Below, in pieces: positions 36,358 through 42,663 of a DNA stretch of 64,000 bases. The stretch comes from Clostridia bacterium (GTDB lineage: Bacteria > Bacillota > Clostridia > Christensenellales > Aristaeellaceae). The position numbers were made by a program, and so were the translations under genes. Position 1 is the first letter of the stretch, and the number at the start of each line of letters is the position of its first letter. Under the pieces are notes generated by a model. That model worked only from the letters and a program-made list of their open reading frames with translations, did not search any database and was not told where the DNA came from. The DNA lies in assembly GCA_017547805.1 (NCBI GenBank), contig JAFYOR010000028.1:1-64000 (forward strand). Direction: 5' to 3'.

Positions 36358-39300
36358 TCATTCCATCGCATCAGCGCCGACGTCCTTGAGCTCGACGCTG
36401 AGCATTTTAGATACGCCCTTTTCTTCCATAGCCACGCCGTACAGACCGTCGCAGCGTTCCATCGTGCCCTTTCTGTGGGTAACAACGACAAACTGCGTAT
36501 CCTTCGAGAACCCGCGAAGGTACTCGGCGAAGGTGGAAATGTTTCCGTCATCCAGCGCCGCCTCAATCTCGTCAAGGAAGCAGAACGGCGTGGGTTTCAG
36601 GCGCAGCATCGCAAAGAGGATGGCAATCGCCGTCAGCGCACGCTCGCCGCCCGAGAGGAGCGAGAGCAGCTGCAGCTTCTTGCCCGGCGGCTGCGCAACA
36701 ATCTCGATGCCGCAGGACAGCACGTCCTTTTCATCCATCAGGCGAAGCTCCGCCTGACCGCCGCCAAAGAGCTTGCAGAACGTCTCGTTGAAATACACCT
36801 GCATGAGCCGGAAGTTTTCCATGAACTGGCGTTCCATCTGCTTCTGAATCGTATCAATGATCCCCAGCAGATCATTTTGCGCGCGCAGAAGATCATCTCG
36901 CTGCGCGGTGAGATTCTCGTGCTTTTCCTTGCAGGCGCGGTATTCGTCAACCGCCGCAACATTCACTGTGCCCATCGCGCGGATTTCGCGGCGAATATCC
37001 GCAATACGCTTATCGCCCGCCGCAAGATCAAACGGATCCTTGAGATACTCCTTTGCGCCGCTGTAGGTCAGCTCGTAATCATCCCAGATTCTCTGCTGCA
37101 TCTGCGTCAGTTCCGCCTGCGCCCGGCTGAGAACCATTTCCGTCTTATGCCGCTTGTCCGTATCGCGGGACAGCGCTTCGCGCAGGGTATCAATCTCCTG
37201 CGTCAGGCTTCTGACGTGTTCCTGATTCTCATTACGCTTTTCCTGCTGCTCAAGCAGCGTCTGCTGCGCCGTCTTGAGCGCGCCGGTACAGCTCACCTGC
37301 TCCGCCTCGAGAGCAGCCATCTGCTGCGTTGCATCCTGATGGTTGAGCGTAAGCGTCTGACGGCTTTCCTGCGCCTGACCAATCTGCGCAAAGATATCGT
37401 CCTGCTCGCGGCGCATACGCGTGGCGTCATGCGTCAGCGCGCTGAGTTCACCTTCGCGCCCGGTGAGCGCAAGACGCAGCGTATGGACCTCCTCGCGAAG
37501 AACGTCCAGCGCCGTCCGTCGTTCATAAAGCGCATCGCTCAGCTCGCCCGTGTGCCGCTGCATTTCGTCGCTCGTCTTCTCCTCGCCCGCCTGTGTGCTG
37601 CGGGCGCCCATGAGCTGGTTATCGATCTGAGCGAGGTTTTCCTGAATCTGCCCGATGAGCATCTCGTTGCGCTGCATCTGCTGGTCATGGCTCTCACTTT
37701 GCTGCGTGCTGGTGCGCACGCGCTCGCTGGCTATGGATACATCAATCTGCGCCTGACGCAGATCCTCAAACGCCTGCGCGCGGCGCTGCTTGATGGTATA
37801 GCGGATGCCTTCGCCCTTCTCCATGCGATCGGCGATATCCCTGAGCTTTTCATTCAGGCTCGACACCAGCGCTTCATGCTCTTTGATCTCGCGTTCGCGG
37901 GAAAGCAGGCTGGTCATGCGGGACGCCGCGCTGCCGCCCGTCATCGAGCCACCGGAATGCATGACATCGCCTTCAAGCGTCACCAGCCTGAACATATGTC
38001 TGCCCCTGCGCATGATCTCAATGCCTGCATCGAGGTTTTCTGCTACGACCGTACGCCCCAGCAGGTTTTCCATGATGCCCCGGTAGGGTTCGTCAAACTC
38101 CACCAATTCGCTGGCTACGCCGACACAGCCGGGCATGGAGAGCAGCTGGCGTTCCTGCGCATTGAGCGTCTTGCCCTTAATCGTCGTCATCGGCAGGAAG
38201 GTCGCGCGGCCGAGCTTATTGTTTCTCAGATATGCGATCATGTCGCGCGCGACGTATTCATCGCTGGTCACGACATTCTGCAGCGCGCCGCCAAGCACCG
38301 CCTCCACCGCGCGTTCAAGCTCCTTGGGGACGCGCATCAGTCCGGCAACAACGCCATGCACGCCGTTGTTGCCCCTGCTGTGCATGAGCACCTGCTTGAC
38401 CGCCTGCTGATAACCCGCATAATCGCGTTCCATGTCGCGCAGCATGCGCAGACGGCTCGTCGCCTGATGCAGCTGTGCGTTGGTTTCATTCTGCGTCTGT
38501 CCGAGGGCAGAAAGACGCCGCGCCGTTTCCTGCGCCTGAGTTTCAATGGTTTCAAGCGTTTGCTGGATTTCGCCTTCCGCCTGTCTGGCAACGGCGAGAT
38601 CCGCCTGCGCCTCTTCAAGCTGCTCAGCGAGCTGCGCGGCAAAGGCTTCCAGTTCCTTTTTCTGCGCAGCTGCCTCTTCGCCGCGGCGCACCAGATCCGC
38701 GCGCATCGTCGAAAGACGCGCTTCGCTTGTCTTGACGTCGCTGAGGCGGTTCACTGCCTCGATATACGCGCTTTTGTGCGCTTCAAGCGCTTCTTCCGCT
38801 TTTCTGGCGGCATCCTGCGCCTTGGCCAGCTTCTCGTCCTTGATGTGGATTTCATGCTGAAGGTCAACGATGCTGCTCTTCACGTCGGCAGTTTTTTTCG
38901 CCGTTTCAGCCATTTCCGTTTCAAGCATCCGGCCTCTTTCGCGCTTGACGTCCTCTTCCTGCGTGAGGCTCAGCACGTCTTTTTCCATACGCGCAATTTC
39001 CGCACGCAGAACGCTGAGTTCGCCCTCGCGCGCTTCTTTTTCGCGCGTCAGATCAAGCACCATTTCATGCGCCTGAGAAACAGCCTCTTCCAGCTGCCGC
39101 GCCGTTTCGCTCGCCTCATCGCGCGTCGCGCTGAGCGCCGCAGCACGGCGCTCCTCCTGCTCAATCGCCTCGTTGAGGCCCTCAAGCAGCGCCTGCGCCT
39201 CGCTGATGCGCACCTGTGCGCGGTCGCTGCGCAGGACAAATGCGGAGCACTCCAGCTGCCGCAGTTCATCGCGCAGGGCAAGATAGCGTCTCGCCGTTTC

Positions 39301-39927
39301 GCTTGCCTTTGCCAGCGGTTCAAGGCGTTCCTCCAGATCAAGGATGATTTCCTCGACACGCTGAAGGTTTTCGCGCATATTGTCAAGGCGTTTTTCGCTT
39401 TCTTCCTTGCGCGTGCGGTATTTGACGATGCCCGCCGCCTCTTCGAAAATTCCGCGCCTGTCTTCGCTCTTTTGGGACAGGATTTCGCCAATGCGGCCCT
39501 GTCCGATAATAGAATAGCCTTCCTTGCCAACGCCCGTGTCGCGGAATAGCTCGACGATGTCCTTGAGCCTGCAGGATGATTTGTTGATGTAGTATTCACC
39601 CTCGCCGCTTCGGTATACGCGGCGGGTAATCATGACCTCGGCAAAGTCAATGGGCAGCGCATGATCCTCGTTATCAAAAACGAGCGATACCTCGCAGTAG
39701 CCAAGGCGTTTGCGCTTCTGCGTGCCGTTGAAGATGACGTCTTCCATCTTACCGCCGCGCAGCGCCTTTGCGCTCTGCTCGCCCAGCACCCACCTGACCG
39801 CATCGGAAAGGTTTGACTTGCCGCTGCCGTTCGGACCAACGATACCGGTGATGCCATTGTCAAAGAGCACCACCGTTCTGTCGGCAAACGACTTAAAGCC
39901 GTATATTTCCAGTCTTTTCAGCCGCAC
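36358..39927 (-). CDS. smc: Chromosome segregation protein SMC
   Basis: Condensin ATPase. The 1189-residue protein begins MRLKRLEIYGFKSFADRTVV, with Walker A GPNGSGKSNLSDAVRW at about 32-39. Long coiled coils flank a hinge (about 500-680) containing NGVHGVVAGLM. The C-terminal head carries signature LLSGGERALTAIA and Walker B CFLDEIEAALDD. The start is a GTG at 39927, 8 nt after AAGGAG. Long open frames opposite this gene are coding-bias shadows. Confidence 0.98.
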   Translation of the reverse strand: MRLKRLEIYGFKSFADRTVVLFDNGITGIVGPNGSGKSNLSDAVRWVLGEQSAKALRGGKMEDVIFNGTQKRKRLGYCEVSLVFDNEDHALPIDFAEVMITRRVYRSGEGEYYINKSSCRLKDIVELFRDTGVGKEGYSIIGQGRIGEILSQKSEDRRGIFEEAAGIVKYRTRKEESEKRLDNMRENLQRVEEIILDLEERLEPLAKASETARRYLALRDELRQLECSAFVLRSDRAQVRISEAQALLEGLNEAIEQEERRAAALSATRDEASETARQLEEAVSQAHEMVLDLTREKEAREGELSVLRAEIARMEKDVLSLTQEEDVKRERGRMLETEMAETAKKTADVKSSIVDLQHEIHIKDEKLAKAQDAARKAEEALEAHKSAYIEAVNRLSDVKTSEARLSTMRADLVRRGEEAAAQKKELEAFAAQLAEQLEEAQADLAVARQAEGEIQQTLETIETQAQETARRLSALGQTQNETNAQLHQATSRLRMLRDMERDYAGYQQAVKQVLMHSRGNNGVHGVVAGLMRVPKELERAVEAVLGGALQNVVTSDEYVARDMIAYLRNNKLGRATFLPMTTIKGKTLNAQERQLLSMPGCVGVASELVEFDEPYRGIMENLLGRTVVAENLDAGIEIMRRGRHMFRLVTLEGDVMHSGGSMTGGSAASRMTSLLSREREIKEHEALVSSLNEKLRDIADRMEKGEGIRYTIKQRRAQAFEDLRQAQIDVSIASERVRTSTQQSESHDQQMQRNEMLIGQIQENLAQIDNQLMGARSTQAGEEKTSDEMQRHTGELSDALYERRTALDVLREEVHTLRLALTGREGELSALTHDATRMRREQDDIFAQIGQAQESRQTLTLNHQDATQQMAALEAEQVSCTGALKTAQQTLLEQQEKRNENQEHVRSLTQEIDTLREALSRDTDKRHKTEMVLSRAQAELTQMQQRIWDDYELTYSGAKEYLKDPFDLAAGDKRIADIRREIRAMGTVNVAAVDEYRACKEKHENLTAQRDDLLRAQNDLLGIIDTIQKQMERQFMENFRLMQVYFNETFCKLFGGGQAELRLMDEKDVLSCGIEIVAQPPGKKLQLLSLLSGGERALTAIAILFAMLRLKPTPFCFLDEIEAALDDGNISTFAEYLRGFSKDTQFVVVTHRKGTMERCDGLYGVAMEEKGVSKMLSVELKDVGADAME

Positions 39928-39956
39928 AGATGCGACTCCTTTCTATGCAAACTCGC

Positions 39957-40631
39957 TTACTTCTTTCCAAGGAACTGCATCGCCATCTGCGCAGCAGCTT
40001 CCTCTGCGCGCTGCTTGCGCGCGCCCTTGCCGGTGCCAAGCTCCGTGCCGTCAGCGCGAAGCACACGCGCCGTAAACACGCGCGCATGCGGCGGACCGTC
40101 CTGCGCGATGATTTCATAGACAGGCGTCTCCTCGCCAAGGGCCTGCAGGTATTCCTGCAGAGCGGACTTTGCATCCCTGTCCCCTTTTGCGCCGGTTTCA
40201 TAGCCGGCCATCGCCAGATCCACAAGCTTCGCCGCCTCTTCAAGGCCGGCATCCAGATACACGGCGGCGATGACCGCTTCCAGCGTATCGGCAAGAATCG
40301 AGGGATTTTCGCGCCCGCCGACGATCTCTTCGCCGCGGTCAAGCTTAAGGAACGTGCCAAGGTTCATTTCCTTCGCCGCCCGAGCCAGATTCGCCTCGCA
40401 AACCAGCGCTGCACGCTTGCGGGTCAGCTGTCCCTCGCGCAGCTTGGGATACTTATGATAGAGCACACGGCTGACACAGATTTCCAGCACGGCATCGCCG
40501 AGGAATTCAAGCCGCTGGTTGTCCTGGCACTTGTGCTGCAGCGCATACGAAGGATGCGTCATCGCCAGATCAAGCAGCTCGATATTGGAAAACGCATGCC
40601 CAATCGTGCGCTCAAGCATGGAATAATTCAT
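39957..40631 (-). CDS. rnc: Ribonuclease III
   Basis: Double-strand-specific endoribonuclease for rRNA and mRNA processing. The 224-residue protein has the signature NQRLEFLGDAVLE near residue 38, the second catalytic acidic region (ADTLEAVIAAVYLDAG near 110), and a C-terminal dsRNA-binding domain ending GKGARKQRAEEAAAQMAMQF. The ATG at 40631 follows GAAAGGAC by 5 nt. The same frame stays open upstream through part of the repeat array, which would add 75 non-RNase residues; that extension is not credited. 29 nt upstream of smc. Confidence 0.96.
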   Translation of the reverse strand: MNYSMLERTIGHAFSNIELLDLAMTHPSYALQHKCQDNQRLEFLGDAVLEICVSRVLYHKYPKLREGQLTRKRAALVCEANLARAAKEMNLGTFLKLDRGEEIVGGRENPSILADTLEAVIAAVYLDAGLEEAAKLVDLAMAGYETGAKGDRDAKSALQEYLQALGEETPVYEIIAQDGPPHARVFTARVLRADGTELGTGKGARKQRAEEAAAQMAMQFLGKK

Positions 40632-40689
40632 GTTTTTGTCCTTTCCGGATTCTCTCTCATTTCTCACCACATCCGGCCACGCGTTCATC

Positions 40690-41240
40690 CCATCCGCCGG
40701 AAGGTAACTCCTGCGGCCGCGGGCGCAAAACTCTTCACCATGTATAAACCGCTTCGGATGTGGGTGTGGGCACAGCCCACCGTTTCCTCGTTTCCGAGGG
40801 CCTTCCGCCCGAAGGAAACTCCTGCAGCCTCGGTCGCTAAATTCTGCACCATGCATAAGCCGCTTCGGATATGGGTGTGGGCACAGCTCTCACTTATTCC
40901 GCCGTTTCGGAGCGCCCTCCGCGCGAACGAAACGCATCATGTGGCCACGGGTACAAAACTCTGCACCATGTATAAACCGCTTCGGATGTGGGTGTGGGCA
41001 CAGCCCACACTTATTCCGCCGTTTCGGAGCGCCCTCCGCGCGAACGAAACGCATCATGCGGCCTCGGTCGCAAAACTCTTCACCATGTATAAACCGCTTC
41101 GGATGTGGGTGTGGGCACAGCCCACACTTATTCCGCCGTTCCGGAGCGCCCTCCGCGCGAACGAAACGCATCATGCAGCCTCGGTCGCAAAATTCTGCAC
41201 CATGCATAAGCCGATTCGGATGTGGGTGTGGGCACAGCCC
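40690..41240. repeat. Tandem array of five repeat units, period about 117 bp, between acpP and rnc
   Basis: The motif CTTCGGATGTGGGTGTGGGC recurs at about 40752, 40863, 40980, 41097 and 41214 (spacing 111, 117, 117, 117). Units 3-5 are nearly identical; units 1-2 are diverged. Each unit contains a perfect short hairpin (GTGTGGGC, ACA, GCCCACAC) in most copies and a longer dyad (CGTTTCG with CGAAACG). There are no unique spacers, so it is not a CRISPR. 117 is a multiple of 3, and the minus strand reads as 39-residue repeats with CGLCPHPHPKRFIHG, broken by one stop at 40890-40892. This is the only stretch over 300 bases without a confident gene (40632-41325). Confidence 0.9.
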
Positions 41241-41241
41241 A

Positions 41242-41317
41242 CCCGTGCATTTCACTTCGCACATCCCTGCGCACGAAATGAAATACACGGGATGGCCGCC
41301 GCCTGAAAGGCGGCGGC
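41242..41317. repeat. Two hairpins at the acpP-proximal end of the repeat array
   Basis: A long imperfect stem (CCCGTG...CACGGG outer arms, 41242-41291) is followed by a perfect 9-bp stem GCCGCCGCC with GGCGGCGGC (41295-41317). No T run follows on the minus strand, so simple termination of acpP transcription is not indicated. Confidence 0.6.
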
Positions 41318-41325
41318 TCTGTGCA

Positions 41326-41553
41326 TTACATCTTTTCTTCGATATAGGCAACCATGTCAGCGACGGTCACGACCTTTTCGATCGCGTCGTCCTCGACCTC
41401 AATGCCAAACTCGGTCTCAACGTCCATCACCAGCATCATGATGCTCGCGCTGTCCGCCTTGAGATCCTCCTTCAGGCGGCTGTCGGGCTTGACTTCGCCC
41501 TCGGAAACGCCCAGCTGCTCGACGATCATCGCCTTTACCTTATCAAAAGTCAT
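41326..41553 (-). CDS. acpP: Acyl carrier protein
   Basis: Carries acyl chains on phosphopantetheine during fatty-acid synthesis. The 75-residue protein starts MTFDKVKAMIVEQLGVSEGE and contains the attachment serine in KADSASIMMLVMDVE near residue 36. The canonical DSLD is DSAS here, an unusual change right after the modified serine. Helix content and acidic character fit ACP. AGGAGG lies 8 nt before the ATG at 41553. Downstream of plsX by 54 nt, as in other Firmicutes, though fabD and fabG are absent. Confidence 0.93.
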   Translation of the reverse strand: MTFDKVKAMIVEQLGVSEGEVKPDSRLKEDLKADSASIMMLVMDVETEFGIEVEDDAIEKVVTVADMVAYIEEKM

Positions 41554-41607
41554 GGGGAATTCCTCCTTCATAAGTTCATTGTCTTTATGATGATAAACGC
41601 ATCGCGT

Positions 41608-42663
41608 TTATTCTTCCGTCTCGGTTTCCAGCTTTGCGACGCCCTCGCGGATCATATCGACGACGCCGTTTTCAACGACGCAGCGCGCCTGACGGATCGC
41701 GCAGAAGATCGCGCGGGCATTGGAATTGCCATGCGCCTTAATGACAGCGCCCTCCACACCCAGCAGCGGCACGCCGCCGACCTCAGTAGAGTCAAAGCTC
41801 TTTTTCAGCCCCTTAAACGTATCCTTCGCCAGCAGCGCAGCAACCTTGCCCTTGGTATTGCTCATCAGCCCTTCCTTGAGGAGCTTAAAGAGCGCGGAAA
41901 CGACGCCTTCAGTATTCTTCAGCACGACGTTACCGATGAAGCCGTCCGCAGCAAGCACATCGCAAAGACCCGCCATCGTATCGCGCGCTTCGACATTGCC
42001 GATGAACTTGTACACATTCTGCTTCTTCATCAGCGCATGCGCCGCCTGCGCCTGCTCGTTGCCCTTGGCTTCCTCAACGCCGATGTTGACCAGACCGACC
42101 TCCGGCGTTTCCACTTCCATCACGCGGTTCATGTAGATGCTGCCCATCATGGCAAACTGGTTGATCCACTCCGGCTTGCAGTCGGTATTCGCGCCTGCAT
42201 CCACCAGCAGCATCGTGCGGCCCGGAACGGGCAGCGGCGCCGCCAGCGCCGGACGGGCAATGCCCTTGATGCGGCCGATCTTGAACATCGCGCCCGCCAT
42301 CACCGCGCCGGTGGAACCGGCGGAAACAAACGCCTGCGCTTCCTTGCGGCGAACGATGTCCATACCCACGTTGAACGTGGAGTTCTTTTTCCGGCGAAGC
42401 GCCATAACCGGATGCTCCTCGGTGGTGATCACTTCCGTCGCATCCACGATCGACAGCTGATCCTTTACCTCGGCATACGCCGCCTGATCAGGGTATTCGG
42501 CAATGGTCTTTTCAATCAGCTCTGTCGGTCCGACGAGGATAATCTCCACATCCTTAAACTCACGAATCGCATCAATCGCGCCGTCCACATTGACCTTGGG
42601 CGCATAATCGCCGCCCATCGCATCAACAACGATTCTGATCGGTTCGTGTTCAAGCGTTCTCAT
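41608..42663 (-). CDS. plsX: Phosphate acyltransferase PlsX
   Basis: Makes acyl-phosphate from acyl-ACP for phospholipid synthesis. The 351-residue protein has the N-terminal IVVDAMGGDYAPK, followed by FVSAGSTGAVMAGAMF, LLVDAGANTDCKP and GFIGNVVLKNTEG. GGAGG is 7 nt before the ATG at 42663; the frame stays open further upstream without a site. Lies 52 nt after the trmH-type gene. acpP follows directly, giving a lipid-synthesis pair ahead of rnc-smc-ftsY. Confidence 0.97.
   Translation of the reverse strand: MRTLEHEPIRIVVDAMGGDYAPKVNVDGAIDAIREFKDVEIILVGPTELIEKTIAEYPDQAAYAEVKDQLSIVDATEVITTEEHPVMALRRKKNSTFNVGMDIVRRKEAQAFVSAGSTGAVMAGAMFKIGRIKGIARPALAAPLPVPGRTMLLVDAGANTDCKPEWINQFAMMGSIYMNRVMEVETPEVGLVNIGVEEAKGNEQAQAAHALMKKQNVYKFIGNVEARDTMAGLCDVLAADGFIGNVVLKNTEGVVSALFKLLKEGLMSNTKGKVAALLAKDTFKGLKKSFDSTEVGGVPLLGVEGAVIKAHGNSNARAIFCAIRQARCVVENGVVDMIREGVAKLETETEE

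Follow-up and report, generated by a model that had tools for sequence, protein, structure and literature searches.

A tandem array between acpP and rnc and its place in a dispersed palindromic repeat family of uncultured gut Clostridia

Between acpP and rnc, in the 64,000-nucleotide stretch of a Clostridia bacterium genome analysed here (the window), lies a tandem repeat array, which raises the question of what such an array is and whether it has any bearing on the RNase III gene next to it. The original prediction, made from the sequence alone, considered an RNase III processing or autoregulatory site, a selfish repeat family, and an unusual protein-coding repeat. The features of the locus are listed below, with bit scores of covariance model R1 for the array units; the name acpP is suggested by family, size, and neighbourhood.

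36358..39927, minus strand: smc (Pfam SMC_N, E 2.5e-74; SMC_hinge, E 4.1e-31)
39957..40631, minus strand: rnc, RNase III, downstream of the array, stop included (Pfam Ribonucleas_3_3, E 3.9e-39; dsrm, E 4.4e-15)
40682..40780, minus strand: array unit 5, nearest rnc, hairpin C degenerate (63.0 bits)
40789..40891, minus strand: array unit 4, hairpin A broken, hairpin C of the GTTTCC/GGAAAC type (92.6 bits)
40903..41008, minus strand: array unit 3, hairpins A and C (103.3 bits)
41020..41125, minus strand: array unit 2, hairpins A and C (109.8 bits)
41137..41242, minus strand: array unit 1, nearest acpP, hairpins A and C (105.3 bits)
41242..41292, minus strand: long hairpin, downstream of acpP and upstream of rnc, stem of 22 bp, its last G common with array unit 1
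41326..41571, minus strand: acpP, acyl carrier protein, upstream of the array (Pfam PP-binding, E 2.9e-12)

The array and the hairpin upstream of rnc

The predicted array of five 117-bp units is real, as it was retrieved both by Tandem Repeats Finder (40712-41242, period 117, 4.6 copies, 87% matches; the sole array in the window) and by model R1, which refined it to 40682-41242 on the minus strand, with five tandem units of 117, 117, 117, 111, and 99 bp and start-to-start distances of 117, 117, 117, and 111. In the rest of the window, the model gave only one extra match, of 20 bases and at chance level (E 0.71). The hairpin 17-mer, with up to 2 mismatches allowed, gave 5 matches, versus none in 100 shuffles. 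The three units closest to acpP were the most alike, as had been predicted, but their pairwise identity of 91-95% makes them similar rather than almost identical. Likewise, the hairpin expected to be perfect in most units (GTGTGGGC-ACA-GCCCACAC) was perfect over its full 8 bp in two of the five, whereas a stem of at least 6 bp was kept in four and was broken in unit 4. The second dyad foreseen (CGTTTCG..CGAAACG) was complete in two units and had one arm changed in a third; unit 4 carried another version of this second hairpin, namely a stem alike in shape but different in sequence (CGTTTCC..GGAAAC), and unit 5 was degenerate. The array started 83 nt past the acpP stop, hence not at a stop codon, and against the hairpin at 41242-41292, with which it has one base in common. 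A consensus promoter/terminator scan of 39900-41700 retrieved none, where shuffles expect 0.5 and 1.7, and an Rfam search of 39900-42000 gave three matches, all far below the gathering score, with no family assigned.

The hairpin itself formed 22 consecutive pairs (-32.8 kcal/mol, z -8.4) and thus showed the long duplex upstream of rnc that characterizes an RNase III autoregulatory leader. An RNase III search returned 30 loci, in 27 of which, representing this genome and 26 relatives, acpP adjoins rnc. Counterparts of the hairpin were found between these genes in 18 of the 26 relatives (L079-L095 and L097), with the consensus CCCGTGTATTTCACTTCGCGCG..GCGAAGCGAAATGGACGGG; seven more distant relatives had acpP-rnc spacers of 21-37 nt without a hairpin. 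In one relative (G021, L096), an unrelated hairpin, AGCCTTTTCTCCCC..GGGGAGAAAAGGC, stood in place of the usual one, and in another (G016, L090) the loop held a long insert that folds into a hairpin itself. None of the 26 relatives, all with a readable spacer, had the array at acpP-rnc; the distance from hairpin to rnc start was 16-44 nt in their cleanly cut segments, versus about 610 nt here because the array lies between. In an alignment of 18 rows (this genome and 17 relatives, leaving out L090 for its long loop insert), 90.5% of the cells were paired, and the covariation was weak (67/500 shuffles reached its score), since there is little variation in the arms. The hairpin is not part of the repeat family, and the query itself was the only match to cover it when the genome was searched at the DNA level. 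An RNase III autoregulatory stem-loop of the rnc operon is on record (Bardwell 1989, as cited in PMC4419217), and the hairpin at 41242-41292 resembles it in the way it might work only. It is a candidate RNase III processing site on the grounds of conservation, position, and fold energy, and could serve, apart from the array, as a simple means by which RNase III controls itself.

Dispersal and anatomy of the repeat unit

A search of the genome and its relatives, suggested with the original prediction, revealed that the unit is dispersed. A DNA search of the genome gave 48 places, the array included, and the covariance model at least 146 matches; in 64 fetched stretches of the genome (418,431 bases), the model gave 181 matches. 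As several arrays reach contig ends in this assembly (113 contigs, 83% complete), these copy numbers are lower bounds. Within the genus, 18 of the 28 other genomes had model matches at E 0.01, three of these 18 (G012, G013, and G043) showing a single weak match each. In a sample of the order, 2 of 121 genomes matched at E 0.001 with stricter filters, namely the source genome and a 3-contig genome (G063) from a different genus of the same taxonomic family. A 27-base pattern occurred in nine stretches of named genomes, all of them assembled from metagenomes and carrying the label Clostridia or Clostridiales, some titles naming sheep, water deer, or rabbit ('Lapin'), and was absent from viral contigs. 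The array thus belongs to a large dispersed family of short palindromic repeats in uncultured gut Clostridia and is no local accident. For the selfish repeat family considered in the original prediction, dispersal is hence borne out, and mobility is suggested by the pattern of presence and absence. A second array of about five units was located directly after the RNase J gene (L180 3001-3493; G000:C12:91739-92231), so that the RNase III and RNase J genes of this genome both adjoin arrays.

Strand-blind clustering of 176 matches gave 98 clusters, 41 of which were multi-unit. Units had a single, head-to-tail orientation in 38 of these 41 clusters and in 26 of 27 in the relatives. A strictly head-to-tail arrangement was rejected: the matches listed first contained no mixed cluster out of 84, but a fuller recount gave 3/41 mixed here and 1/27 in relatives. 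Contexts were counted for 176 of the 181 matches here and for 103 of 114 in the relatives, after short or partial matches had been dropped, together with, in relatives, one low-scoring match and one that overlapped another match in antisense; for the relatives, 60 stretches were drawn from listed matches, mostly high-scoring ones and not at random.

Read in the orientation of rnc, a unit consists of hairpin A at its 5' end (GYGGGC-TGT-GCCCRC), a conserved ACCCRCWTCCGA tail, a spacer that varies between loci and is largely common within one array, a GCGCACGAGGCCG box, also conserved, and hairpin C (such as GTTTCGTTCGCGC-GGAGG-GCGCTCCGAAAC, with an inner loop TTC/TC left unpaired). Unit length was about 75-120 bp across the family. 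Two hairpins are found in one subclass; hairpin C was well formed in 116 of 228 units (93% identity cut), other copies bearing other 3' parts. Model R1 was built from alignment A1, containing 34 units hand-picked for both hairpins out of 36 candidates, two being omitted. In A1, 97.0% of the cells were paired, a percentage that is favourable by choice because the units had been picked for having both hairpins, and 7 of the 17 pairs, or 55 cells, were changed on both sides. Aligned units, proposed earlier as a check for covariation, indeed indicated that the stems of both hairpins are kept by paired changes, with a covariation score of 0.285 versus 0.112 in shuffles (0/500 reaching it). Four covariation measures exceeded the shuffles and the number of pair types did not (12 versus 11.8). 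In hairpin C, G-C and C-G were swapped at two pairs (19 versus 13 and 20 versus 14 sequences), and U-A was replaced by C-G or G-C.

Wobble pairs were rare in the repeat hairpins. At three identity cuts, sense-strand G-U versus C-A counts in hairpin A were 14:23, 14:15, and 12:12, without excess, and this hairpin is explained no less well by a constraint at the DNA level than by an RNA helix. Hairpin C leaned to sense-strand G-U (17:7, 12:5, and 12:4), which was not significant (p 0.06, 0.14, and 0.08). In this test, an ill-aligned closing pair and poorly formed hairpins were excluded; the large raw excess in hairpin C shrank after this filtering, and selection at the RNA level is not claimed from it. 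Two single units folded no better than shuffles on the rnc strand (z -0.8 and -0.1), one of them giving z -2.0 on the opposite strand.

Placement at stop codons and other edges

The clusters examined for context mostly followed a gene on the same strand, which was the case for 69 of 101 here and 52 of 65 in the relatives, as raw counts, to which gene order may contribute; 27 and 9, respectively, followed an opposite-strand gene, and 5 and 4 were unjudged. The sense clusters started -1 to 3 nt from the upstream stop in 41 of 69 cases here and 28 of 52 in relatives. A start exactly 0 nt past the stop was found for 26 of 64 sense clusters here versus 0.53 expected and for 25 of 48 in ten relatives versus 0.43 expected, the expectations assuming uniform positions over the gap; the maximum in 20,000 simulations was 5 here and 4 in the relatives. 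These counts omit sense clusters with a gene call overlapping the element (5 here, 4 in relatives) and those whose upstream gene is on the opposite strand (27 here, 9 in relatives) or missing (5 and 4, respectively), and they rely on gene ends called by a codon-usage gene caller trained on the window. A model-free check of perfect stems of at least 6 bp, run on loci chosen for holding the repeat, gave hairpins at offset 0 after 23 of 315 genes here, 9 at offset 1, 1-2 at each of offsets 2-5, and a broader second rise near 18-20 nt (up to 14). In the relatives, offset 0 was found in 28 of 219 genes versus 1 at offset 1. At the other end, no 3' end of an element lay within 3 nt of a downstream start (0/40 here, 0/38 in relatives) or of an opposite-strand stop (0/52 and 0/20).

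The stops of the 51 flush cases were TAA (42), TGA (8), and TAG (1), whereas TAA made up 286 of the 538 stops counted in these loci (Fisher p 6.6e-6). TAA as a sequence target was rejected, since flush sites use TGA and TAG too and the flanks of non-flush clusters are without TAA preference. Ten genes were picked from the 26 flush cases to be named: lepA, typA, prfC, dnaK, obgE, tgt, leuS, smpB, and IMP dehydrogenase, according to NCBIfam cut-offs, and a thioredoxin-reductase-like protein below the cut-off. Terminator-like sites occurred within 200 nt beyond flush clusters in 14 of 38 cases here and 7 of 27 in relatives, versus 1/38 and 0/27 for mid-gene controls, so that part of the elements lie inside transcripts. 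The strict 0-nt 5' edge is unusually exact among such repeats and is not explained by mobility and neutral retention alone. Two kinds of answer remain: insertion may recognize where a functional sequence ends, or selection may favour a hairpin in contact with the stop.

Gain and loss of copies were examined behind lepA, typA, and the RNase J gene, and most orthologous sites checked were empty. Among readable 3' ends, an element at 0-3 nt was found in 2/25, 1/28, and 3/27 cases, respectively, by a strict pattern (a perfect or near-perfect stem plus tail), which misses the imperfect typA copy of this genome, seen by eye; three further strict-pattern matches at 32-59 nt were not element-like. The C-terminal residues of LepA were the same in occupied and empty relatives, and those of RNase J in nearly all close ones, and hence the stop codons of both look native. 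Presence behind the same gene across species with different stem sequences could reflect either an old insertion followed by divergence or repeated insertion.

Besides stop codons, a few other edges were encountered. A unit began 0 nt past the 3' end of a tRNA-Leu gene (L165 6058-6216), and at another locus (L215 2399-3514) an element was flush with the stop of smpB and antisense units started directly at the tmRNA gene, 0 nt from its 5' end. The corresponding distance was 3 nt in another species (L268); all examined loci together held 13 tRNA/tmRNA genes. Two sense clusters here and one in relatives followed a T-run, and 14 and 16, respectively, fell in no edge class. In the G063 genus, only two of 15 clusters started 1-3 nt past a stop, one started at -1, and one followed a partial hairpin that starts at the stop itself, the remaining clusters being antisense, overlapping a called gene, or not near a stop. 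As few of the 15 are near a stop, the placement rule looks looser, or less well measured, in that genus.

Origin of the array and alternative explanations

Several known repeat systems resemble this family. MIRU of mycobacteria overlap stop codons and lie in sense orientation. Like them, the present units are tandem and intergenic with an edge that meets gene ends; insertion of MIRU at start codons, with an open reading frame coupled to the downstream gene, is described in PMC12548453, whereas 3' ends were never found within 3 nt of a start here, as given above. Pneumococcal BOX elements, as described in PMC3049150, are modular (boxA-boxB(n)-boxC), owe their variation to the inner repeats, and contain the stop codons of 36 coding sequences. 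Shared with these Streptococcus pneumoniae elements are modular palindromes, variable tandem units, intergenic dispersal, and a position right at the 3' end of genes, some of them housekeeping genes, with the stop codon at the element edge (PMC3049150), an edge found here in the 26/64 and 25/48 sense clusters; the comparison is one of architecture and placement. Unlike BOX, the whole unit is repeated, without outer boxA and boxC around inner units in the arrays read, and the stop codons look native, the LepA and RNase J C-termini being unchanged in most relatives. REP and BIME elements (GTAG- or CGTC-tagged) are likewise short, abundant palindromes downstream of genes, but the present family differs in its unit of about 75-120 bp, the two hairpins of one subclass, its nearly always head-to-tail clusters, and the lack of a RAYT match in this genome. 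The alternating orientation of BIME was not found, mixed orientation occurring in only 3/41 clusters here and 1/27 in relatives. According to PMC3733652, REPs with a GTAG tag are located mostly downstream of coding regions and often provide TAG stops; in the 5' flanks here, TAG made up 1 of 51 flush stops and did not rank among the 12 commonest trinucleotides ahead of 115 non-flush clusters. The family thus belongs to a known kind, the small dispersed palindromic repeats, since it works like BOX, REP, and MIRU elements, yet agrees in full with none of the definitions tested. A literature search for such a family or its likely names, covering titles and abstract openings and few subscription journals, gave no description.

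The array probably arose by tandem expansion, at this locus, of a single copy of a BOX/REP-like intergenic palindromic repeat that occurs across much of the genus, is mobile, and spreads into gene 3' ends. Copies would spread as non-autonomous mobile elements, as suggested by presence and absence, and would be tolerated where neither a gene nor a terminator is broken. Once present, units may recombine or slip, whereby copy number would grow, and this would keep the units within an array alike while arrays differ. At acpP-rnc, one copy would have landed directly against the conserved hairpin and then expanded to five, lengthening the spacer between hairpin and rnc start from the 16-44 nt of the relatives to about 610 nt. 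An effect of the array on rnc expression, if any, would be likeliest on the transcript between the hairpin and rnc.

Alternatively, the elements may be functional 3'-UTR hairpins under selection, affecting translation termination or protecting the mRNA 3' end. This explanation is somewhat unlikely. It would account for elements lying in sense orientation at exactly 0 nt behind housekeeping genes, for the excess of TAA at flush stops (42/51 versus 286/538), for the terminator-like sites beyond 14/38 and 7/27 flush clusters (versus 1/38 and 0/27 in controls), and for the lean of hairpin C to G-U (17:7, 12:5, and 12:4; p 0.06-0.14), and it has a precedent in E. coli, where ribosome stalling is reported for REPs located no more than 15 nt from a stop codon (earlier work cited in PMC12306157). 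However, hairpin A lacks a sense-strand G-U excess, which fits a DNA palindrome, folding of the two single units on the sense strand was no better than that of shuffles, and most orthologues checked are without the element. That the array is instead a processing or autoregulatory device of the rnc operon, as the original prediction proposed, is very improbable. Hairpins do adjoin rnc. The Correia element (CE) offers a parallel. Interspersed 'CE' repeats were reported to be cleaved by RNase III, according to PMC3049150. Against such a device, related units lie behind many unrelated genes (lepA, typA, prfC, dnaK, and others), the array is missing at acpP-rnc in 26/26 relatives, perfect stems of hairpin A measure only 6-8 bp or are broken, the folds are unremarkable (z -0.8 and -0.1), and the separate, conserved 22-bp hairpin is a better substrate. 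The proposed RNase III role of the array is hence not supported.

REP elements proper, mobilized by a RAYT (Y1) transposase, would also be short, abundant palindromes at gene 3' ends, but this identity is highly improbable. The Y1 transposase (RAYT type, PF01797) gave no match in this 83%-complete genome, and its matches in 15 of the 31 genomes searched did not follow repeat number: G010 and G016 held 68 and 53 repeat matches without Y1, and G002, G004, and G014 had no repeat matches yet 4, 2, and 5 Y1 matches. A RAYT association was rejected for these reasons, and TAG was not among the commonest trinucleotides before non-flush clusters either. A protein-coding repeat, also raised by the original prediction, has in its favour that all five unit lengths are multiples of three and that one plus-strand frame is open through the array. 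Yet this long frame runs antisense to rnc, most of the array was left without a gene by the codon-usage gene caller, and other arrays show spacings of 91, 104, 115, 116, 119, 121, 124, and 125, which are not multiples of three, besides 102, 123, and 171. As most spacings in other arrays do not fit a reading frame, coding is scarcely conceivable. Finally, the assembly is fragmented (113 contigs) and repeats disturb assembly, which might point to a local accident or an assembly artefact without family context. Dispersal in 18 of 28 relatives and in the 3-contig genome of another genus makes this explanation negligible and refutes an artefact for the family, although the copy number of the acpP-rnc array itself could be wrong.

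In choosing its target, the element may read functional ends in general, its 5' hairpin landing at the exact edge of a coding sequence, tRNA, tmRNA, terminator T-runs, or the long rnc hairpin, an idea that is rather improbable. If true, RNA ends, the position of the ribosome, or single-stranded DNA at the boundaries of transcripts would guide integration. To our knowledge, target selection by functional ends is not known for small bacterial repeats. For uncultured gut Clostridia, the present work contributes a large family of repeats, without a description in the literature searched, and a sharp, testable rule, the 5' edge being the first base past the stop codon. Because its copies stand behind many identifiable genes with empty orthologous sites, the family could separate insertion from selection on termination.

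The 3' ends of lepA gave two minor observations. Four species (L291, L293, L301, and L305) share another intergenic, repeat-like text after lepA, GCGAAGCGAAGAAGGGAGTC or close variants, followed by GAGGG. In addition, G005 has two lepA 3' ends (L305 and L315), one with the element and one without, representing either a strain mixture or a second copy.
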